Part shown: one piece after another, positions 1,526 to 55,836 of the stretch
Layout: every line of letters begins with the position of its first letter
How positions within the stretch are numbered: position 1 is the first letter of the stretch
Assembly: GCA_036172665.1 (NCBI GenBank)
Contig: CM069872.1
Location: 39,666,101 to 39,730,100 of the forward strand
Length of the DNA: 64,000 bases
Reading direction: 5' to 3'
Source of the DNA: Prosopocoilus inquinatus
Taxonomy: Eukaryota; Arthropoda; Insecta; Coleoptera; Lucanidae
Program-made: the position numbers and the translations under genes
Notes under the pieces: model-generated
Databases searched by the model: none
Told to the model about the DNA's origin: nothing
The model's input: only the letters and a program-made list of their open reading frames with translations

Positions 1526-2734
1526 CTATGCGGTTTTGGCTTCTGGTTTCGAATTGAAATCGTGGCCTAGTTGGTTGTAGCCATAACGAATGTCTGGTTT
1601 TCTTTGTCGTTCACTGCGCCGTAAAGTAAACTGAGGAGTTTCGAATTTCTGTTTGTCTAAATTTTCTATTGGTTGAATTTGTACTGGCCGGTCTTCAAAA
1701 ATGGACGTTGTTGTCGAATTTTCAACATTTTTTCCAATTTCCAATTTCTCAGGTACTTTTGCTAATGACACGCGTAGTTGATCAGCGTGTTTCTGTTTTG
1801 TTTCACCATTAATTTATACTGGGTAGGAATGCGCCTCTGTTTGTCGGTGAAGAATGCCTTCTCGGCATCCAGTTGTCCTTTCATTTTGTACCCAAACAGG
1901 TGCTCCAGATTGAAATGATCTTTCAACTGTCTTCTTTTCATGAGCAACATTTTGTTTTGTAATTTCTTTTTCCATATGATGTCTTGGATCTGATTTTAAA
2001 CGGTCCAATAAATTAGGTAGACGACGTTTTAGAAACATTTCTGCTGGTGATTGCCCAGTAGTTTTCTGTGTTGACATTCTATAAGCCATCAACACCAACT
2101 GTAATCTTTCATCTAAGGTACCTTTTTCCGTAGCTGTCAATCGATGTTTGAGAATCTGAATAAGTTTTTCCGCTAATCCATTGGTCATTGGATGGTACGG
2201 AGTTCTCTGAATATGTGTAATGTCCCGTGTCTTACAAAACTGACTAAATTCCGCAGATATAAACTGAGGCCCATTGTCACTAACAATTTGAATTGGATTT
2301 CCAAATCTCGAAAACCATTCCGTTAGTACATTTATTACCTTAGTTGCTGTAGCCTTTGTCATACCTTTAACTTCTGCTCATTTAGAATAGGCATCGATTA
2401 AAACAAACAGCATTCGATTTTCAAAAGGGCCTGCGAAATCAATATGAACACGCTCCCAAGGAGCGTTGGGTACATTCCACGAATATAAAGGTACTTCCAT
2501 TGGCCAGTTTCGATTTTGCTGACCTGCTGTGCAAAATTTCACAAATCGTTCAATATCTTCGTCAATTTTCGGCCACCATACGTAATGATGAGCTAATGAA
2601 CGAGTGGCTGCTATTCCCAAATGTCCTGCATGAAGAATTTCTAAAATACGCTGCTGACAAGCTATAGGCACCACGACTCGTCCATACCAATTATTATTTG
2701 GCATGGTTAATAGATAATTCATTACGTTTTTCAT
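1526..2734 (-). pseudogene. Integrase region of the minus-strand gypsy element
   Basis: Three overlapping or abutting frames (2734-2378, 2362-1814, 1771-1526) encode an integrase in pieces. The first has the zinc-binding end (HAGHLG, then YVWWPK) and the first catalytic Asp in HIDFAGP. The second has VSDNGPQF with the second Asp and TNGLAEKLIQ with the Glu, so the DDE triad is still readable. In the zinc finger the usual CxxC reads CTAG, so the last Cys is lost. The third frame is a low-complexity tail ending in a basic RRSERQRKP stretch, as in other gypsy integrases. Frame changes at about 2370 and 1800 show it is non-functional. Confidence 0.85.
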
Positions 2735-3170
2735 AAAATGAAGTTAATTCCTCGGGCAACCGTTTTCTTATAGGCCACTCAGTCGTCATAAAATTCAAAA
2801 CTTTCGATAATTTCGAATCCGCCCCAGTTTTCATTTTAAGTTCTTTGCTATCTACAGGTAAACCCTCTAGTTTTTGATGATGAAGATGACGTAAATCACT
2901 TGCGATTTTCGCTTCTACCGCTGACCTGTTCGTTTGCAGTAATGGTAATCGGCTCAATACATCTGCAATGGTAACTTCCTTGGCAGGTCGGTATTCAATT
3001 TCGTAGGAATATCCACTCAGCAAAATAGCCCATCGAGCCAACCGATTCGCTGCAGTTTTAGGTAGTTCCTTATTGGGTCCAAAAATATACCGCAACGGTT
3101 TGTGGTCACTTTCTAGGGTAAATTTTCGACCATAGGTATACTGATGAAACTTTGTAACTCCGAATACCAA
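2694..3170 (-). pseudogene. RNase H domain of the minus-strand gypsy element
   Basis: The 158-codon frame contains the C-terminal half of a gypsy RNase H: FGVTKFHQYTYGRKF, SDHKPLRYIFG and ARWAILLSGYSYEIEY followed by DVLSRLPL, the usual end of the domain. It then runs into the linker before integrase. The N-terminal part with the first acidic residue is disrupted near 3170-3240. It overlaps the integrase frame by about 40 bp in another frame, a sign of indels. Confidence 0.85.
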
Positions 3171-3172
3171 AG

Positions 3173-4349
3173 CTAAAGCCTCACGGTCAATAGAAGCATA
3201 ATTTCTTTCCGGTTTTGATAAAGTTCTAAATTTTCGTCATAATGTTCTAAACATGAATCCTTCGTAAATAAAGTTTTCACTTTTTTAAAAATTCCATCAA
3301 ACTCCTTCATCCATTGCCATTTCGTCCCCTTTTCGAAAAGTTGATACAAGGAAGCACATATCGGTTGTAAATAAGGAATGAATTTGGCATAAAAATTTAC
3401 AAATGATAAAAGCGAACATAACTGATGAAGGTTCTGAGGTGATGATTCTGTTGGATGTACACAAAATCTATTGATTTTATGTCCCATATAAGTTATAGAT
3501 TCTTGCATAAGTTTGCACTTGTCTGGGCGCGTACTAATACCAGATCTTTCTAATCGTTCGAATGTAGCTCGCAAATTCTGAAGACACTCCTCATCTGTTT
3601 TGCCTGTTACGATAATACCATCGATGAACCATGCAGTTGAAGGTAAGTTGTGCAAAATTTGGTCCATTACATACTGAAATAACTGGGGTGTCGATGAAAT
3701 GCCAAAAGGACAACGTTTGTAAGCGTAAAATCATTTGTGAGTCGCAATAAAGAGATAACGTCTCGATTCCTTGGACACCGGAAGTTGAAGATAAGCATCC
3801 TTTAAATCAATAATTGGAAATTATGTGAGTCGCAATAAAGAGATAACGTCTCGATTCCTTGGACACCGAAAGTTGAAGATAAGCATCCTTTAAATCAATA
3901 ATTGGAAATTTCTTGCCTCCGTTCAGCTTTGTCGCAATTTCTTCAAAAGTGGGCATTGGATGTTCGTCAATGATTATGAACGGGTTTATGGTCACTTTGA
4001 AATCACCACATATCCGGATTTCTCCTGTTTTCTTCTCAACATTAACTGTAGGTGATATTCACTCCATTTGTGTAGATGCAGGGTCAATTTTCTCTAAAAC
4101 ATCGGCTTTTTCTAATCTGTCGAGTTCCTCGTCGACTCGTTTTCTCAGAGCAAAAGGTACTGGTCGAGCTCGAAATCGTTTTGGTATCGCTCCTTCTCGC
4201 AAACGTATAACTGCTTTGTGTTCTCTAATTAAACCTCCCTCATCTGAAAATAACTTCGGAAAATCTCTCATTAAAATTTTGGCTTCTTCACCAGCCAAAA
4301 CTTCTTTCGCAGTCACTGTAGACTGTCTCTCTTTATTTACGCCATACAA
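3173..4349 (-). pseudogene. Reverse transcriptase region of the minus-strand gypsy element
   Basis: Frames 4349-4059, 3995-3807 and 3667-3173 carry successive RT segments. The first has the entry region (RPVPFALRKRVDEELDRLE), the second the palm motif PIIDLKDAYLQL, the third the catalytic loop and thumb. The catalytic loop reads FIDGIIVTG, where active gypsy elements have YxDD: the second Asp is Gly and the Tyr is Phe. A tandem duplication at 3737-3910 also interrupts the palm. Either lesion alone should abolish activity. Confidence 0.85.
3737..3910. repeat. Tandem duplication (88-bp period) inside the RT pseudogene
   Basis: The block starting GTGAGTCGCAATAAAGAG occurs at 3737-3822 and again at 3825-3910, with only one clear difference (ACCGG versus ACCGA). 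The near-identity means the duplication is recent relative to the decay of the host element. Confidence 0.9.
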
Positions 4350-25002: not shown

Positions 25003-25047
25003 GTGAGGGTAGGTATTAACGTTTAATGAAATATCTCACATCAGTGT

Positions 25048-25202
25048 TGTTACGTATGTATGTGTGTTTTGAGTAGGCGAGTATGTGCATGAACAATTGA
25101 TAATAACATTACTGAAGTTTCCAAAAGTTTGTTCTAATTAATTTTGTAAATGGAAAGCCGAATTTAATAAAAGTTAATCGCTTAATGATCTAATACATAA
25201 TA
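25048..25202 (+). repeat. 5' LTR of the Mag element
   Basis: It starts TGTTACGTATG and ends TAATACATAATA. It matches the 3' LTR over its whole length, with a few substitutions and small indels (for example an extra AATAAA-containing stretch near the end). Confidence 0.9.
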
Positions 25203-25285
25203 TAAATTTGGCGACGAGGAATACGATTATTAGGATTACCTAATTAAACGCATTGAAGATATTACGGCGGTGTACGAGAACTTAC

Positions 25286-26317
25286 ATGGCAAACGAAGCT
25301 GGAAATGCAATACAATTTCAAAATTACACTCCAACGGTTGGACAATTTGGACCTTTTGACATCAACGCTTCTTGGACAAATTATCAAGAACGACTGGAAT
25401 TTTTCTTTGAAGCAAATAACATAACGAATACAAGCAAGAAACGAGCTATTCTGCTAGCACAATTTGGCGCTTCGGCGTATAAAATTTTGAGATCATTGGT
25501 GACGCCACAAACACCACGTGATTTCACGTATGCGGAAATAGTTATTAAGTTAAAAGGTTATTTCAACCCAACACCAAATGAAATCGTCGAGAGGTTTAAT
25601 TTCAACAAGCGAATACAAAGAAAAAGTGAATCCATTGCAGATTTTGTCGCAGATCTTCGTAAACTCAGTAAATTTTGCAAGTTTATTGAAGTAAATAACA
25701 TGCTCAGAGATCGAATCGTATGTGGAGTCGCAGACGAAGGATTACAAAAGAAATTGTTTTCGGAACCTAAACTTACATTTGAGCGCGCATTGGAATTAGC
25801 TATTGCAGCCGAAACTGCACCGAAAAATGTGGAAGACGTCAGAATTTTGACAGGAAATTCAATATCGATGATTAATAGCCAAAAATCTGGACTAAAAGAG
25901 CCAAGAAAATTTAAGCCCTGTCATCATTGTGACAGATTACATGACGGAAAAAAATGCAAATTCAGAGACGCTGTCTGCTACTACTGCAACAAGAAAGGAC
26001 ATATACAAAAAGCTTGTTTTAAAAAGAAATATGAACAAAGGAAACAAGAACAACATACAGCAATAAATAGAAAACCGAATAAGTCAAAGAACTGTAACTG
26101 GGTTGAAGATGACGAGTGTGATTTGTATACACGTAATTCGATCCATGCAGCTGAGAAGAATGAAAAAATTATGGCGAATGTCAAGTTCAATGGAATGCCA
26201 GTTCTGATGGAGGTGGATTCTGGTGCAGTATGTACTATTGTTAAAAAAGGGACTTCGGAAAATATTCGAATGAAATCAAGGAAATTACAAAAAGTGACAT
26301 GGAATTTGCAGACATAA
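25286..26317 (+). pseudogene. gag and start of protease, Mag element
   Basis: The frame opens at 25253, but the Met at 25286 (MANEAG) is the better start by comparison with gag proteins of this clade. The first 230 residues form the capsid-like part (WTNYQERLEFFFEANNI, FNPTPNEIVERF, SIADFVADLRKLSKFC). Two zinc knuckles follow: a variant CHHC...H...C with three residues before the His, then a canonical CYYCNKKGHIQKAC. Near the end DSGA marks the aspartic protease active site. The frame stops at a TAA at 26315; the protease continues in the same frame beyond it, so this is a nonsense mutation within a gag-pol fusion frame. Confidence 0.9.
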
Positions 26318-26665
26318 ACTCAACAAAGAATTAACATTTTGGGCGAGACTGTTGTTGAAGTTCAATACAAAAAAGTAAATAAAAACTTAAAAGTTGTTGT
26401 TTCGGATGGTGGAGGTTGTGATCTGCTGGGAAGAAACTGGTTTGGAGAATTGGGTATCACAATAAAAGGGGGGTGCAGCATCAATAAAGACTCGCGCATT
26501 TTACCGCAACTATTATTCCAACAATACCCTACAGTTTTTGGAGAGAAACTGGGCAAATTTTTCGGAGATCCAATTAAGCTAGAGTTGAAGGAAGATGTAT
26601 CACCTGTTTTCCTGAAAAGCAGACAAGTTCCTTTCGCCCTTAAGTCAGCAGTAGAAAAACAATAG
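26318..26665 (+). pseudogene. Protease end and RT entry, Mag element
   Basis: After the stop the same frame continues with protease residues (DLLGRNWFGELGI, with the GRNW typical of gypsy proteases) and the RT entry segment (VFLKSRQVPFALKSAVEK). It ends at a stop caused by a one-base deletion in an A run near 26655; the RT resumes in another frame about 60 bp on. Confidence 0.88.
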
Positions 26666-27870
26666 ACAAGTTAGTTGAACAGGGAGTTCTGGAAGCAACC
26701 AATTATTCCGAATGGGCCACACCGTTGGTCATTTCAAGAAAACACGATAGGAAAATAAGATTGTGTGGAGATTACCGCAGTACGGTGAACAAGGCAATTA
26801 AAAAAAACTCGTATCCTTTACCTACAATTACGGAAATGATAACCTTATTAACACCCGCTACGATGTTTTCGAAACTGGATTTATCACAAGCTTATCAACA
26901 ACTTCGTGTTGATAATGAGGCAGCAAAGATTCTTACACTTAATACTCATAAAGGACTGTTCCGAGTGAACCGTCTTCCTTTTGGAATTTCAATCGCACCA
27001 GGCCTTTTTCAAAGAATTATGGATTCGTTAATAGCTTCTATTCCGGGAGCAAAAGCATATTTGGATGATATCATTGTATTCGGAAGAAATCAAGAACAAC
27101 AGGACAGTAACTTAAGAAAAGTCTTGGATAAATTACCAGATGCGGGACTTACTTTAAAACAATCTAAATGCGAATTTGGACTGAAGAACATAAGATATTT
27201 AGGATATGTCATAGGAGAAGAAGGAGTACGCCCTACAGATGAACGTATCAAGGCAATTAAAGAAGCTCCAAGGCCTACAAATAAAGAAGAACTACAGTCA
27301 TTTTTAGGAATGGTAAACTTCTACAACCGTTTTCTAATAGATAAATCGAGTATAATCGAACCACTGCACAGACTATTGGATAATAAACCATGGCGATGGA
27401 CTAAACTATATGAAAAAGCTTTCTGCAAGTTGAAAGATCTGTTGAGATCAGATTTAATTTTAACACACTATGAAGAACACAAGGAACTAGTTGTCAATTG
27501 CGACGCGTCACCATATGGGATTGGCGTAGTCTTAGCTCACAGGAACAATGATATAGAGAAACCAAAATCTGAAAGAAATTACGCCCAAATAGACAAAGAA
27601 GCTTTAGCCATTGTTGAGGGAATTAAACATTTTCATCAATATGTCGCTGGAAGAGAATTTACAATTACAACGGATCATCGACCCCTTCTAGGACTATTAA
27701 CACCAAAGAAACCAATTCCGACGGTTTTGTCACCAAGAAGGTTAAGATGGTGTTTGATTTTGAGTGCTTATAATTACAATCTTGAATACAGAAAAGGAAA
27801 AGAGAATGCTAATGCTGATGCCTTAGTCGATTGCCGTAACTTTCAGATGATGACGAAGTGGTACCTCTAG
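26666..27870 (+). pseudogene. Reverse transcriptase and RNase H, Mag element
   Basis: The open part starts at 26725. It has the RT palm (FSKLDLSQAYQQL), the intact catalytic YLDDIIVFG, the thumb (FLGMVNFYNRFL) and RNase H with its first catalytic Asp in VNCDASPYGIG, then DHRPLLGLL and the ENANADAL end. A frameshift near 27825 changes frame just after the RNase H domain; the first ATG at 26725 lies inside the RT and is not a true start. Catalytic residues of both enzymes look intact. Confidence 0.9.
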
Positions 27871-29333
27871 GAGACATACTACTGATGGAATCTCAGAACA
27901 AGCCTATTCCAGTCAAGGAAATTCAGAAATATACTCTGAAAGATGAAGTTTTGAAGAAAGTTCTTTATTGGACATGGCATCAGTGGCCGAGTACAGAAAT
28001 TTCTGAAAAATATAAACCATTTCACTGCAGAAAAAATGAAATTTCGGTACATAAAGACTGTCTACTTTGGGGAAATCGATTAATAGCACCTGAAGTTACA
28101 CGCAAAAGATTATTAGAATTATTACATGCAAATCATCCGGGAATCGTAGCTATGAAAGCGTGTGCTAGAAGCTATGTATGGTGGCCAAATATAGACAAGG
28201 ACATCGAAGAATGTGTGGCGAAAAGTGAAGTATGTCAAACTCATGAAAATAATCCACCAAAAGCACCGCGACAAATCTTGGAACGTCCATTAAATCCATG
28301 GTCTACTTTGCATGTAGACTTCGCAAGTCCTTATAAAGACAAAATTTTCTTAATTGTTGTCGACGCAATGTCAAAATGGCTTGAAGTAGACATTATGAAA
28401 TCAATGGCATCAGGCGAAGTCATTAAGAGTTTCAGAAAAATATTTGCCAGATTGGGAATTTCAGACCTTGTTGTCTCGGATAACGGACGTTCTCTTGATT
28501 CGAAAGAGCTTCACGAATTCTACGAGAAAAATTTAATTGAATATAGTACGATATCGCCATACCATCCATCCAGTAACGGGCAAGCTGAACATATGGTACA
28601 GACTACGAAGAAAATTCTGTCTAAATTATATGAAGGAAATATTGAATTACAAGTTCAAAGAATGCTTTTTCGTCAGCATACGACTGTACATGCAAGAACT
28701 AAAAAGACACCAGCGGAACTGCTGATGGGAAGGAAATTGAGAACTGTGTTGGATAAAATGCATCCATACAAACTACAAACTAACAAGAAATTATCAGAAG
28801 AGTCCAAAAGAAAACTCCGCATTTTTGATTTCGGAGATTTGGTTTATTTTCGTAACTACAATCCGTCAGGACCTAAATGGTTAAAAGGACAGATACAGGA
28901 TTGCACAGGACAAGTTTCTTATAAAGTTCAAATATCGAATGGGAATATTGTTAAACGACATATAGACCTTCTACGACGGAGAGTAGCTGAAGATGTTGAA
29001 CAAACTACAAAACAGTCATCAGGATTCGAATTACGAGAAACACAGTCAGCTGCGTTTACTCCTAATGTTGTTATGCAAGAAACGTCTCCAACACCGTCTT
29101 TTAATTCTGACTCCGATATTTCAAATCCAGTACAGCGAAGAAATGATACACAGGAGGAGTTAATTAATCAACCTGTAGTTCCTTCTAACAAAGAACATGG
29201 AGCAGTCGTACCAGGTCAAGAAAATAGGGATCTTCCTTCTCCTGTGCTGTCACATAATCACGAAAAAATGTCTCTGAGACCACGAAGACTTTGTAAACAA
29301 CCGTTGCGCTACAAGGACTTTGTGCTCAAATAA
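27858..29333 (+). pseudogene. Integrase, Mag element
   Basis: A 491-codon open frame covers the RNase H-integrase linker, zinc-binding domain, catalytic core and C-terminal tail. The core keeps the DDE triad: Asp in HVDFASP, Asp in VSDNGRS and Glu in NGQAEHM. The zinc finger has LLHANHPG for its histidines, but the usual CxxC reads SEVC, so the first Cys is Ser. A GDLVYFRNY patch begins the C-terminal domain, and the tail ends with SLRPRRLCKQPLRYKDFV before the polypurine tract. The frame belongs to pol upstream, so it has no start of its own. Confidence 0.9.
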
Positions 29334-29346
29334 AAAAGGGAAGGGA

Positions 29347-29496
29347 TGTTATGTATGTATGTGTGTTTTGAGTAGGCGAGTATGTGCATGAACAATTGAT
29401 AATAACATTACTGAAGTTTCCAAAAGTTTGTTCGAATTAATTTTGTAATTGGAAAGCCGAATTTAAGTTAATTGCTTAATGATCTAATACATAATA
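29347..29496 (+). repeat. 3' LTR of the Mag element
   Basis: A 150-bp copy of the 5' LTR, beginning TGTTATGTATG directly after the polypurine tract and ending CATAATA before the AGTGT target duplication. Confidence 0.9.
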
Positions 29497-41933: not shown

Positions 41934-43141
41934 GTTAGTACTAATTCATAATACAGCATGTAGAGTAAGTTGTATTTTATTTTATTTTATTAAGTCGCAG
42001 TTCCACATTGAAATTGCAGTATGAGAAAGTATTTTTACAAAGAAATCGAAGCATCCATTCAATCTGTAGATATTTTCGAGTTCACGTGGACTGATTTGTA
42101 TATCGTCGTGTGTAACAGAAAGAGAAATATTATTAGCCAATCACATATAATAAGGAGGTTATAATTTTTTTGTTGGCCACCTCTTTTCTTTGTGAAGCCA
42201 GAAATTGTGAAACTACTACTTGATAAAATACATCGATGTATAACTCCATGTATAATAATAACTAACAACGTCGACTAATTCCATTTTACTTAATTAAATT
42301 CCTGAAACGTCCAAATAAATTTCTCATGTAACTTAACGTCTGAAACGATGAAAATTCGGCCCGCATTCCCCCTAACTTAATAAACCTTCCTTTTATAAAG
42401 TTGTGAACGAACTGAAACATACGTATCAAAGTTTCGCGCGTCGTTTTCTCTGAGTGCAGATTGCAATCTTTGGGAAAGCCGGCGAAAATCATAAAAGTTT
42501 TCCGCGCTGAAACTGAAAAGGTCTCGGCATTCTTTTCGCTTGGAAAAGTTAAAAAAGAATTTTTTATTTAATTGCATCTGAAAATGAGTTTTCTATTTTC
42601 AAAAGTTCTCGGTTGCTGATTTATACAGAACTAAAAATTTAAAAAAAAAATCGTAGGATGTCGCTGTTTTATCTGTTTATAAAATTTTAATAACATTGTT
42701 ATAATAAAATCTTCATTTAACCCTTAAGTAGTATGGCTTGGATTCCAAACACTTAAGGTATGGCAGGGTCAAAAGTGACCCTCAATTTTTTTGGCATAGT
42801 ACAGTTTTTGTAACTGGTTATTTAACTTAAGACAATGGAGATATACACTTTACTAACTCTTTTAAGAATACAGAAAGAAAAAACATAAGTATTTAAAAGT
42901 CATTTTAGTGATAAAAATAGGACAAAGGAAAAATTCTCCGAAATCAACAATAACTCCTGAAATCAATAAAAACTTGCGAACAACATTTTTTTTCCGTAAC
43001 TCAGTGTATGAATCTTAACTTTAGAGTAACTCAGTTTAAGCATAATATCAAAAAATTTAAACAACAACATAAATTTATTGGTAAAAGAGAACGCATGGAC
43101 TATACAATAACTGATTCCGAACCGTTCGTTATAATTACTGA

Positions 43142-45153: not shown

Positions 45154-45947
45154 CCTATATTAAAGCAGAAGCGTAGACAGTCGCTACTGATCGCATATAT
45201 TTTTTCTTTTCAGTTTCAAATTTTTGGTCGGTGGTGTACTCTTGCTACGAGGATTACACCGAGTGACTATCATTGACTGAGAATTATTTTATTAGATTGG
45301 CAACACTTCTCAATATTCATGTTGGTATACTTCTATAAAACTCTCACAATCTGACGTTTTCATCCTTGTTTTTACCAATATCTACAATGAAAGGGAGTTA
45401 ATGTCGGTATAAAAGGCAAAGAAAGTAATTATCGACGTATGTACATTTCAGTCTTATTAGACCTCATCAGGACAGTATAACTAAGATATAAGGTGTTGAC
45501 ACCTGAAGACTTTTCACTGCGGGCTTATGCTGACGATAACCTTTTTCTCTAATATCTTAATTTCACGATAACTAACCTAAAAACTTAACTAGCTATCACG
45601 TAAAAGTAACAAACTAAGAAAATTATGAGGAGCAGCAAGTACTGCCAATTCCCCAGGGTTCCCAACCTACTTAATTTTGCTGTCATAGTTTAAAGTCACT
45701 TGATATTAAAATGTAGAATTTTGTTGAGTGCAATGAAAAAGTAGCTCAAATCAAGCGCCAGGCGTCAAGTAAGATTTTCAAACGCCAAAAAAATGGCGGA
45801 ATTTCACCCAATCTGGCAACTCTGAGCGCCGCAGTAAGGGTGGGACGGAGGGGACGACGGCCCCAGACGCAACAATATTTTTTTAGAGCTCATTTTGATG
45901 AATAAATATCTTGCAAGATAGATGAAAAGTCTCGACGTGTGGAGGTC

Positions 45948-51024: not shown

Positions 51025-51353
51025 ATTAACTTTTAAGTGGAACTTAAAGTTTTAAGTGAAAATGGTGCAAACGGACATTAATGAAATGTTACTAAATAAT
51101 CTAAATATCAAAATTAGTATATTGGGACGTACGTAAATTCAGATCAAAATAAGTAATAGCGGATCCGTCACTGGCTTTACATACATAGTAAACAAATTTT
51201 AAAATCAAATATTTAATATAATATATTAAAAATATTTAAATCTGGCGTTAGAACATGAAATACTTCAATATGCCGGGGAAGTCAGCCTAAATCCGCAGTT
51301 ACGAAAAACATAGTTACTCCCCACATTCAGGGGAGCTGCCCAAATCTACTGTA

Positions 51354-52719
51354 CAGGGTGGATTAATTTCGATGTCTCTTATGGGCATCTCCGTAACTAT
51401 AAGAGATAGAAAAAAACTAGTGCCCAAGTCTGGGTCTCTTTTTTAGGGATTAAGTCAATAGCGTAAACAAAAATTGGCTGTCTTCTTTGTTTTCAAGTTA
51501 TAGGCAAAAATTGCCATTTTCGACTTTTCGTTTTTCGGTCATATCTCAATTCTTCAAGGTAGATATGGTTTTAATGTTTGGTGTGCACTGATGGGAAATA
51601 GTGTTGTAGCCTATCATATTTTTCGAGAAAATTTAAATTCCGTGCAGTATTTAGGAATTTTAGAAACATACATTGAAGAATTTGTTGATAGCGTGCCAGT
51701 AAATCAGAGACGAAATTTGTTTTTTCAACATGACGGATGTCCGGCTCATAAAGCTAGAAACGTTACAGACTTTTTAAATAGAAATTTTGGCAATAACTGG
51801 CTCGGAGTGAATGGACTAAACAAATGGCCGCCTAGATCGCCCGACTTAACGCCCCTAGATTTTTTTTTGTGGGGGTACACACAAATAAATTGTATACAAT
51901 GGAACATAATAATATAGATGATTTAATACAAAATTTTGAAATATGTCTGTACTCTGTATCAAATATTCATATTTACAACGCTGTGAGGGGGGTTAGAAAA
52001 CGAAGTCAATTATGTTTAGAAAACAATGGACGGCAATTCGAAAATTTAGTTTAAACGTTTAGTATTATATATATTTAACAACTTTTGTTTATTTAATAAA
52101 ATATAATTCAGCTGCGAGAAAAATTTATTTATTTAAATATATTTCATCATACCATATCTCATGTCTTAAACGATCTGGAATATTTCAACTGCCGGCTGAA
52201 AATTAATAAAAACAAAAAAAAATGCAGAACTGTATCGAAACTAACTTACTAAGAATAGAATGAATACACGCAATAATAAAAAAGCAATTTATCTCATTAA
52301 TTGTAAAAAATAAACCCAATAAAGTATATATTTTTGAAAACAGAAAAAAAATTTCTATTTAATGAGGGAATTACCAACTATAATTTCTATTTAAAAAAAC
52401 ATAAGTTTATGTTATAATTCGAAAATTTAAGTAAATGTTAAAAAATTAACTACGCCACTGAATTGTATTCCAAAATGTGTCCTAATAATGTTCAAACAGT
52501 TTTTTAATATCTCTAGAAATAAACGAAATATGACCGAAAAACGAAAAGTCGAAAATGGCAATTTTTGCCTATAACTTGAAAACAAAAGAAGACAGCCAAT
52601 TTTTGTTTACGCTATTGACTTAATCCCTAAAAAAGAGATCGAGACTTGGCAACTAGTTTTTTTCTATCTCTTATAGTTACGGAAATGCCCATAAGAGACA
52701 TCGAAAGTAATCCACCCTG
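51354..52719 (+). mobile_element. Internally deleted mariner-like transposon with ~190-bp TIRs
   Basis: Inverted repeats run from CAGGGTGGATTA (51354) inward to about 51544 and from about 52528 to TAATCC...CACCCTG (52719), flanked by TA on both sides. Both arms share AAAAATTGGCTGTCTTCTTT and ACGAAAAGTCGAAAATGGCA (in inverse orientation). Between them lies half a transposase. TA target, CAGGGTG ends and transposase type place it in the Tc1/mariner superfamily. Confidence 0.92.
51567..52054 (+). pseudogene. Mariner-like transposase, C-terminal part
   Basis: The frame resumes near FNVWCALMGN and continues with the second catalytic Asp in FFQHDGCPAH and the third in WPPRSPDLTPLDFFLWG; I count 36 residues between those two. 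The N-terminal half (DNA-binding domain and first Asp) is missing: the sequence passes almost directly from the left TIR into the middle of the protein. A frameshift near 51890 moves the tail into another frame (51869-52054). Not functional. Confidence 0.88.
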
Positions 52720-52721
52720 TA

Positions 52722-53224
52722 CAATGCTAGGAGCCATCGGGTTACCTTGCGAAACGATGTTTGTTGACATCGCTTGCTACGTGGTAACAAAAGAAGCGCG
52801 TTGTGCGTATTTGAGCCAGTTTCTTCAGCTGCGCCAACTGTAACTTACCACGCCTCTTGAAGCAAGGTCGGTCGTTCCTTCGAGAATTACGATGTGCTGG
52901 AAAGGTGCGTAAAAGTGTCCACTTAGTGGAGTCGGCGTGGGGGATTCAACAGGTATTACGTTAAGGACGCCACCCATCAGATATTACGCAACCCAGAAGT
53001 AAAGGAAGATACACATCCACTTCAGTTCTACATTTTATGAAAGATCGTTTTCTTATAATATTACCAAATATTGTATAATGGCATCGCTCCAGATTACAAA
53101 TTGCTTCCCAGTTTTAGTTTCAAAAAGAAAGTTCGCTTACTTTTAACTGATGGACAGAAAAAGTGTAAAGGAAAAGAGACGGAAAGATGCTCCATTGATG
53201 CATGTGCTTTATAATTTATAAATT
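52722..53224. other. Non-coding stretch, nothing recognised
   Basis: A less AT-rich patch near 52730-53000 has no domain-bearing frame; one open frame (52646-52843) starts inside the mariner TIR and is rejected. Confidence 0.4.
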
Positions 53225-53395: not shown

Positions 53396-55311
53396 ATATC
53401 CATGAATGACCCCAGAAAGTACAACACCCCAGGACCCACTTCCCCAATAGTATGCCACAGGTGAAGGCAAAGTAAACAAAAATGATATTTGAATTCCCTC
53501 CCACAAGCGTAAATATCGTAAGATGAAAGATATTCAAATTCAGTAAAAATAGTACGTTTATTTACTGCAATTAGGGCGTTTCGAGTTAACAAGCAATACC
53601 GTAAGCAAAAAGGCATCGGCGAATTAGCGGGAGTACTCTGGTTCAGCTTACAGTTTTTAGTCTTAGCATCTACAAAAAATAATTATGGTTTGAAGCGCGC
53701 AAGACAAATATTCGAGAGAGGCAAAAAAAGGAAGTGGAGAAAAACTTCAATATTTTAAAGTTGTGCTCTCTGAATTTAAGCTAAAGGAAATTGACAGGTG
53801 CGAACAAACAAAATAGCAATAATAGGTATACAAGACGTAAACAGTATAAATAGACTTAAATTTAACGAAAAAAAAAAAAAAAATTAAACCCCTAGTCAAT
53901 ATTAAAGCAGCAAAAATTGAGAAATTATAAAATATAATCAAATCTTATTGTCCCAAAAGTGCACCTAATTTGTCCACGTTGCCAGTTCGCGACAAACCCC
54001 GGTAGTAGACTCCAAAGTGTGACGTCATGCAGAACGATCCCAAAAAAAAGAAGGGATGGAAAAATCTTTCGTCACCAGGTTTTACACAAACCGCTTCTTC
54101 CCAGAAGAGTGACGTCGAAAGGGGAGTCCGGGTGGTTCCGGAGTTAAAACTGCTTGCCCGGAAAATCACTCTCTGCGACGCTCACACGACGGTCGTTGCA
54201 GTGTCAGTTAGAAAGGAACAGCGTCTTTCGGCAGATGGGTCGTTGACGACTGAACCAGTTTGCTAATCCGGATCTTTCAAGAGATCCATGTGAGCCGGAT
54301 CCAAAAATTTTAGGATCCGGCTCACGACTTACTGTTACCGTAGGACTCGCGGAATGATCGAACGACTGACTGGCGACTGATTGAAACATACACGACTCAA
54401 CACTGTGTTCGGGGTTTGAGTACTTAGTGTCAGTTTATATTAATTCTTTGATTTAAGCTATTTTTTGTGACAAACACTTTAAATCCGTCAATTTAAAATA
54501 AAGTAAAAAAACATATAGATCACAGAATATTAAGGAATTATCCACATAAGTTCAATAATTATTATAGTACCGTATAATACAGCATTCTGTCTTTTAATAC
54601 GATGTGGCCAGAATCATTTTATTAGATTTTAACTTTATCGTAAGGTGGCATATGTAAAACCGGCTAATCCTACGAGCGAACGGCTTAATTTCTGTTCAGA
54701 ATCTTCGAATCCGAGATACATCCGGATCATTGACCCTGATCTTTATACTGATCCAGATTCACTGAGTCGGATTTTGAAAATGAACCGGATTGCCCATCTC
54801 ATGTCCCATATGCAGGGCGAAAACCCGGGTCAGCACGAATTCAGCGTCACGAACTGCCAGCGACTACTTACTATAAGAGAGAAAACGTGGAAATAAAACA
54901 ACCGTAAACGGTAAACGCCTGTGAAAATCAAGTGAGCTTCGAAATGGACGGAACAAACGTGACGCTTACTTTGCCAAAGAAAAATACAAGCTTTGACTGC
55001 GGGGCACACTCCCCAGAATCGTGAAACGATCACCTAAACACGTGGGCAAAACTAAGACGATGCGGCCTACAAATCCGTTAGAAACGGTTGACTTAAACTC
55101 TGCGTTAAAAACTTCAACACAGAACACGCATCGTCTAAAGCGATGCACACACCGACTGTCTTCTCTGATAGTCAACAACGAAAAGGATCGACATTTGGGT
55201 AACAACCGCGTGCGTAGGATGTGACTAGGATCCTTAGATTTGATTGACGTTTATCTTATACGGTATGCTGGGTTTCCAGCTGGTTGTTTTAAAATTCCTG
55301 AACGTTAATAT
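53396..55311. other. Non-coding stretch with a perfect hairpin
   Basis: No supported exon. The sequence GTGAGCCGGATCC at 54290-54302 is mirrored by GGATCCGGCTCAC at 54313-54325 around a 10-base loop. Several GGATCCGG or ATCCGGATC words occur around 54260-54790, suggesting a repeat family. Open frames between 53940 and 55230 have no domains. Confidence 0.5.
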
Positions 55312-55365
55312 TTTAGAAAAATTTTGTGCAAATCGTTTTTGATTGCAGTGAAAACCTCGAGCAGC

Positions 55366-55410
55366 CTCTGGACAGCTGTTTCAGCCCTGCTTGGGGCTTC
55401 TTCAGCAGAG
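55366..55410 (-). ncRNA. Second hammerhead core, opposite strand
   Basis: Because the arms are perfect inverses, the minus strand of the left arm holds the same CTGAAGA, stem II, GAAA, GTC core (CTGAAGA at 55405-55399, cleavage between 55371 and 55370) with the inner stem I pairing CTCTG/CAGAG. The outer stem I is absent on this side, because its partner strand is the loop. Activity is therefore less certain than for the plus-strand copy. Confidence 0.6.
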
Positions 55411-55449
55411 AATAAATTGGACAAGTCGTTTTTGTTTGCAGTGGAAATG

Positions 55450-55514
55450 TCGAGCTACGTCTCTGCTGAAGAAGCCCCAAGCAGGGCTGAAACAGCTGTC
55501 CAGAGGCTGCTCGA
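55450..55514 (+). ncRNA. Hammerhead ribozyme, type I with short stem III
   Basis: The core reads CTGAAGA (55466-55472, fits CUGANGA), stem II AGCCC/GGGCT with a CAAGCA loop (55473-55488), GAA (55489-55491), then ACAGCTGT and C at 55500, giving the GUC cleavage triplet. Stem I pairs CTCTG (55461-55465) with CAGAG (55501-55505) and, across an internal loop, TCGAGC (55450-55455) with GCTCGA (55509-55514); pairing continues outward to about 55422 and 55542. Stem III is a self-complementary octamer too short for a good loop, as in ribozymes of Penelope-like elements and retrozymes, which cleave best as dimers. The first stem II pair is A-U where G-C is usual, which could lower activity. Confidence 0.8.
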
Positions 55515-55713
55515 GGTTTTCACTGCAATCAAAAACGATTTGCACAAAATTTTTCTAAACATTTTCATTATGCTTTGACAGCAAGCATGGCTGCCTTGCA
55601 TGGGGGACTTATTAGGAGCAAATCCCGCTTCAATTTGTCTATCCTACTGCAATGTCAGGTCAAAAAGCGATAGTAAGATGTCGCTATTTTATCTGTTAAT
55701 ATTTTAAATCAAT

Positions 55714-55829
55714 GGGCGCGTTCAGCGGATGCGTTGCTTACTCATCAGTCGTTTGTGATTGGCTATTACCTTCATGTGAGCCAATCACAATCGATTTCTG
55801 AGTAAGCAACGCATCCGCTGAACGCGCCC
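55714..55829. mobile_element. 116-bp MITE flanked by AATCAAT
   Basis: GGGCGCGTTCAGCGGATGCG is mirrored exactly by CGCATCCGCTGAACGCGCCC, and inversion continues through GTTGCTTACTCA and TGTGATTGGCT. AATCAAT flanks both ends (55707-55713, 55830-55836), a 7-bp duplication. Superfamily not assigned. Confidence 0.85.
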
Positions 55830-55836
55830 AATCAAT

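Follow-up and report, generated by a model that had tools for sequence, protein, structure and literature searches.

A hammerhead-like sequence on a long hairpin, in the genome of the beetle Prosopocoilus inquinatus, raises the question of what kind of element carries it and how that element came to be inserted there. The window, the whole stretch of DNA that was analysed, comprises 64,000 nucleotides of contig CM069872.1 (39,666,101 to 39,730,100). The first-pass annotation had described a hammerhead ribozyme here, capping a hairpin of more than 40 bp, and had offered two readings, a retrozyme-like non-coding element or an orphaned pseudo-LTR fragment. The hammerhead motif at 55466–55500 is confirmed as real on sequence criteria. 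The 'long hairpin' is two things, the 41-pair stem I of the ribozyme and the fold-back of an insertion that spans 55316–55694 and is flanked by a 12-bp target-site duplication. The features are as follows, where Y (~57) and X (~197) are positions in the repeating unit:

55304–55315, no strand: left target-site duplication, GTTAATATTTTA (inverted-repeat and end analysis)
55316–55411, minus strand: putatively Y-primed arm, antisense, from unit ~57 back to ~271, with the minus-strand core; 100% complementary to 55460–55555
55371–55405, minus strand: mirror hammerhead core (descriptor scan); proximal stem I has only 6 pairs here
55410–55694, plus strand: putatively X-primed arm, sense, from unit ~220 via the hammerhead, beyond Y, to X (unit ~197)
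55417–55465, plus strand: stem I, 5' strand, distal rod and proximal GTCTCTG (folding, stem I alignment)
55466–55500, plus strand: hammerhead core, CTGAAGA-AGCCC-CAAGCA-GGGCT-GAA-ACAGCTGT-C, comprising CTGAAGA, stem II AGCCC/GGGCT (5 bp), GAA, the self-complementary stem III ACAGCTGT and C17; predicted cleavage after 55500 (descriptor scan)
55501–55547, plus strand: stem I, 3' strand (folding, stem I alignment)
55695–55706, no strand: right target-site duplication, GTTAATATTTTA (inverted-repeat and end analysis)

A hammerhead descriptor matched the window three times, against 0.007 matches expected per window (150 first-order Markov simulations, loosest setting): at 55466–55500 on the plus strand, at its minus-strand mirror 55371–55405, and at 45470 on the minus strand. 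The second core owes its presence to a perfect inverted repeat of 100 bp at this locus (55312–55411/55460–55559). The 131-nt hairpin has a folding energy of −71.7 kcal/mol (z −12), the long hairpin of the whole locus is predicted at −203.6 kcal/mol and would be expected to sequester the core in a full-length transcript, and in the drawn structure stem I consists of 7 proximal pairs and 34 more as a rod. The first-pass annotation was thus right about the hammerhead and its self-complementary ACAGCUGU stem III, and its hairpin of more than 40 bp holds as stem I; the far longer hairpin is the fold-back insertion, and the annotation had overlooked the 100-bp inverted repeat, the minus-strand core, the 12-bp duplication and the extent of the insertion out to 55694. 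The covariance-model search that it had proposed came out against it, with no family reaching its gathering score in the Rfam scan and Hammerhead_HH9 aligning to the core at 16.6 bits (E 0.83, relaxed threshold). MicroRNA families that matched the hairpins at relaxed Rfam thresholds were dismissed as palindrome artefacts.

The third descriptor match is part of another hammerhead repeat family, which is more diverged (45411–45485, minus strand, core at 45470) and scores 24.8 bits against HH9 (gathering score 52; E 9e-4 for a search space of 701 bases). It has 45 matches including itself, with the best 40 of 370 candidates scored and the others 77–84% alike, and four minus-then-plus pairs occur among the matches listed; two copies (L127 and L128) are fold-backs with arms 74% and 86% complementary. 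Elsewhere in the window lie a Gypsy-type LTR element (25043–29466; RT, RNase H and integrase frames, 125-bp terminal direct repeats 96% alike), Gypsy-type pol pieces in separate frames (1817–3730, minus strand; RNase H, integrase) with an 88-bp tandem duplication, 98% alike, beside them (3736–3910), and a pair of 144-nt inverted arms, 94% complementary, with 1,086 nt between them (51350–52723). Just past the hammerhead insertion is a separate MITE-like 52-nt inverted repeat with a 14-nt loop (55713–55830; 92% complementary), followed by a WDR44 gene on the minus strand (57.6–61.1 kb; 70% and 69% identity to the proteins of the scarab beetles Trypoxylus and Popillia, at most 67% to those of other beetles).

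Stem I was aligned for the window together with 76 of 87 loci, giving 51 distinct rows. The filter required core length and the 5'-strand motifs, which accounts for part of the conservation seen in those motifs. Paired cells amount to 95.0%, against 94.6% in shuffles, and 23 cells change on both sides, where shuffles give 2.9 and slid controls no more than 4. Pair 44–118 is GC in 19 rows, AU in 17, GU in 14 and unpaired in 1. Two counts speak against covariation: 52 of 500 shuffles had at least as many pairs changed on both sides (4), and 153 of 500 at least as many further pair types (24). The shuffle control leaves relatedness in, so support comes from the slid control and pair 44–118, and we read the stem I changes across copies as partly compensated.

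The first-pass annotation had named the lack of other genomic copies preserving the core as evidence against itself, and that possibility fails outright. In the genome from which the window comes (650 Mb, 173 contigs) the core pattern has 6,359 and 6,457 matches on the two strands, 12,816 in all, and a reversed control has 0; insertions are fewer than matches, since one insertion can hold several cores. Same-strand cores within one insertion are spaced at 304–312 nt, once at 624 (7 distinct pairs, 7 loci), which gives a unit of ~312 nt. Long tandem arrays were not seen in the 67 loci of the first sample described below. The unit, putatively non-coding, has a GC content of 41–44% (6 copies), and stop-free runs in its circle are 88–115 aa. 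Part of the family is young, as 9 other genomic places are identical (100%) to window 55410–55559 (similarity search, best 40 of 1,042 candidates scored). At 42642–42680 the window also has 39 nt that match the retrozyme at 85% as far as X, perhaps a short or decayed insertion. Two real units folded as circles give predicted rods of −104.9 and −110.4 kcal/mol (z −5.4 and −7.3; 60 base shuffles each), and in these predicted minimum-energy circles Y and X lie mostly in unpaired stretches of the central multiloop. A loose core pattern found 12 stretches in viral contigs, near a rough estimate of chance.

These properties can be set beside those of animal non-LTR retrozymes (Cervera and de la Pena, 2020; PMC7229834). 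As far as the available portion of that paper goes, the beetle element has in common with them a type I hammerhead (here by descriptor and stem I changes, below the Rfam gathering score), a ~150–450-bp unit in tandem copies, a GC content below 45% (within a general limit of 45–50%), target duplications longer than 4 bp (11–15 bp in 47 insertions), a highly self-paired predicted circle and coexistence with hammerhead-carrying Penelope-like elements. By these sequence features, we assign it to a known kind, as a new family of animal-type, non-autonomous, non-LTR retrozyme. The retrozyme-like reading thus stands, with a ~312-nt unit, partial tandem copies and thousands of core matches. The other reading, an orphaned pseudo-LTR fragment, is not supported: the window shows no similarity to the resident Penelope-like element (BLASTN, no match at E 1e-3), and the unit is complete on its own. 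Two differences from the published retrozymes stand out. The beetle retrozyme runs to at most ~2.3 units in the fetched loci, unlike those in the portion of PMC7229834 available, and the main text of that paper does not contain the word 'inverted', whereas beetle copies with clear ends are mostly fold-backs with two fixed ends.

How general is the fold-back arrangement? We drew two samples, selected by core or by similarity, in which structure played no part. For the first, 100 core places were listed, all on a single contig (C1); the first 91 were taken and the last nine left out. They correspond to 67 loci (L041–L108 minus the duplicate L047), which were aligned to a real unit and yielded 76 chains of at least 90 nt, 47 of them with a target duplication of at least 11 bp. 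The duplication is exactly 12 bp in 28 of the 47 (range 11–15 bp) and has an AT content of 83%, and the insertions with a duplication are 128 to 920 bp long. Their outer ends are X and Y in 43 of 47 by script; L058 is also clear on reading, and L107 probable (6 nt only). In these 44–45 insertions both outer ends are antisense to the ribozyme strand and the inner turn is variable. The exceptions are L073 (X+X) and the first chain of L074 (Y only). If each strand had picked X or Y freely, the chance of at least 45 X+Y insertions among 47 would be 8e-12. The 29 chains without a clear duplication comprise 11 X+Y and 18 others, which are incomplete, nested or irregular; among these are a YY (L049), an XX (L068) and a chain carrying X twice, in mixed sense. 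The second sample consisted of 21 similarity-chosen loci including the window, giving 22 chains; all 9 chains with a duplication of at least 11 bp are X+Y, and the 13 without a clear one include 5 X+Y and 8 that are not, among them one XX (L029) and one YY (L030). At duplications of exactly 12 bp, microhomology between target and RNA is 1.28 for Y against 0.55 permuted (n=18) and 1.41 for X against 0.45 (n=22), an excess to which we give no weight because the calling of the duplication edge can inflate it.

Inverted arms could arise if each strand of a target cut primed its own cDNA, or if one cDNA folded back and copied itself. Such self-priming, or snap-back, is the favoured explanation of inverted Penelope structures in rotifers (PMC3846280, in the part available). 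We compared the arms of 42 of the 47 insertions, dropping L055, L058, the first chain of L074, L078 and L107. The arms overlap in 32 of the 42 and are near-identical where compared (100% over the window's 100 bp), and short microhomology occurs at many inner turns, all of which speaks for snap-back. It is hard to apply to the 10 insertions whose arms share at most 8 unit positions, since these offer no complementary stretch to fold onto, and it should return to the end from which it started, whereas the outer ends here are two different fixed sites. We therefore consider snap-back unlikely. Arm lengths are uncorrelated (r 0.11). Identity between arms is 98.5% within one insertion (35 pairs) and 95.9% between insertions (163 pairs), which would suit a common template, though repair of palindromic arms could add to the likeness. 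One arm is longer than the unit in 13 of 42 insertions (maximum 730 nt, copies of up to ~2.3 units), and of the 84 arm ends a single one comes within 5 nt of the predicted cleavage site. Runs beyond one unit that do not stop at the cleavage site point to a circular or multimeric template; the circular RNA suggested in the first-pass annotation is compatible with these copies, and multimeric linear RNA equally so. The script also had Y arms crossing the cleavage site in 42 of 42 insertions, a count without weight because the loci were picked for an intact core and one arm of L073 (X+X) was miscounted as Y.

Which enzyme might make such insertions? RT and GIY-YIG domains do not fit into a ~312-nt unit whose longest stop-free run is 115 aa, and the retrozyme unit has no such frame. 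A GIY-YIG search of the genome (best 150 of 2,232 candidates scored) listed many places that are minus-then-plus pairs with long open frames. One locus, L117, has an intact 787-aa frame with RVT_1 and GIY-YIG domains; a Tribolium protein matches it at 52% identity across 56% of the frame. Nine loci of this Penelope-like element (L109–L117) were picked as inverted pairs, so that inversion is by choice and the end types are free. In 9 of 9 one end reads ...CACTATTTATT and the other, ~38 nt further on, ...TTTGTGATTA, the positions varying by a few bases (X'+Y'), with duplications of 11–15 bp. Just upstream lies a hammerhead-like motif, CTGAAGATGGTAACTTCGTTACCGAAATACGTAT, with a self-complementary AUACGUAU; as we read it, a single unpaired base precedes its stem II, and the descriptor missed it. 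This core occurs 377 and 364 times on the two strands (741 in all; reversed control 0), with many minus-then-plus pairs among the first listed places. In the fold-back at L117:292–7430, with two 787-aa frames facing outwards, one arm exceeds the full ~2.6-kb unit, which indicates that the Penelope-like template, too, is circular or multimeric. The retrozyme shares the insertion geometry of this element (two start sites, inverted ends, short duplication). By eye, no clear sequence resemblance links its X and Y to X' and Y', so the mobilising partner may be another Penelope-like family. A partner search took in nine more GIY-YIG loci (L118–L126, one flank each): CAGCTGT was absent on the strand searched, four (L119, L122–L124) are further loci of the L117 family, with one side fetched each and left out of the end analysis, and five have no BLASTN match to L117.

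LINE-1 twin priming makes inversions, and target duplications of similar size are common for LINEs, so a different RT, a LINE-type protein, might mobilise the retrozyme by twin priming. We think this still less probable than snap-back, since the listed insertion ends show no poly-A tract and the two-end signature recurs in the resident Penelope-like element. A fold-back DNA transposon (MITE) that picked up a hammerhead by chance would account for inverted arms and target duplications, and an assembly artefact of palindromic reads for the 100% arm identity in the window, but the first is hardly credible given that the outer ends Y and X differ and are not mutual inverses, that insertions range from 128 to 920 bp and that some arms exceed one round of the unit, and the second equally so with a 12-bp duplication in the flanks, core matches by the thousand, and arms that are not identical in 28 of the 35 insertions compared.

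We consider it probable that Penelope-like machinery copies retrozyme RNA, in circular or multimeric form, into cDNA from the two strands of a staggered cut, starting at two fixed sites. This account builds on what is read directly from the genome: the unit, the number of cores, the ends, the duplications, the independence of the arms and the geometry in common with the Penelope-like element. In an order of steps that we infer, genomic copies would be transcribed, and the type I hammerhead would cut the RNA, probably as a dimer because its self-complementary stem III has no loop; a loop-less stem III of this kind is expected to need a dimer. Ligation would then give ~312-nt circles, circularity being our supposition, and a Penelope-like RT/GIY-YIG protein, the presumed enzyme, would make a staggered cut at AT-rich DNA, leaving the 12-bp duplication. 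Each freed 3' end would prime its own cDNA on RNA of the hammerhead strand, one at X and the other at Y, and the two cDNAs, joined end to end, would form an inverted insertion whose outer ends are fixed at two sites while its inner turn varies. Work by Lunse et al. in 2017 reportedly concerned, going by its title, dimer-cleaving small hammerheads in Penelope-like elements; dimer action is likely common to both, and the beetle motif differs in having a 41-pair stem I rod and sitting in a retrozyme.

Known Penelope-like elements bear on this model from both sides. In the accessible part of the lizard study (PMC11167929), a purified Penelope-like protein cuts AT-rich target DNA on both strands and extends each of them, with internal starts; counting against the model, no difference in start site was seen between the strands, and hammerhead cleavage is unnecessary in vitro. 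The Anolis element, Poseidon, has in common with the beetle retrozyme an AT-rich target, a hammerhead and internal RT starts with a tail between two of these, and Penelope of A. vaga (PMC3846280) has inverted outer repeats, an optional one-sided 'tail' and short target duplications, again in the portions available. Set against these sources as far as they go, the beetle retrozyme is unlike Penelope-like elements in having no RT/endonuclease frame, an X–Y distance of ~140 nt as against a 30–40-nt tail, and duplications of 12 bp as against 8–10 bp in the rotifer. By analogy, the ~38-nt X'–Y' interval looks like the 'tail' of the two papers, within their available parts. In the literature searched, with most subscription journals outside its reach, we found no description of fold-back retrozyme insertions, and for hammerhead ribozymes with Coleoptera and retrotransposons only virus-derived elements.

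A role for Penelope-like elements in the movement of animal retrozymes has been proposed from shared hammerheads, tandem copies and coexistence (PMC7229834, available portion), and the beetle insertion signature appears to support that published guess. These insertions bear on the route by which animal retrozymes return to the genome: many short, young copies record the reaction, with X and Y once each, a 12-bp stagger and independent arms. The interest centres on this signature and its match to Penelope-like insertion. The model is concrete and testable, and would explain both the inverted repeats and the one-sided 'tail' of Penelope elements. A further step, on which we are evenly divided, is that one circular RNA sits in a two-site RT complex, for instance a Penelope-like dimer, which would oblige each strand of the single staggered cut to prime at a fixed site of its own, different from that of the other strand. 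If so, the X+Y pairing would be the imprint of the symmetry of that complex, and retrozyme and autonomous element alike would move by simultaneous reverse transcription on two strands, with no order of one strand and then the second.
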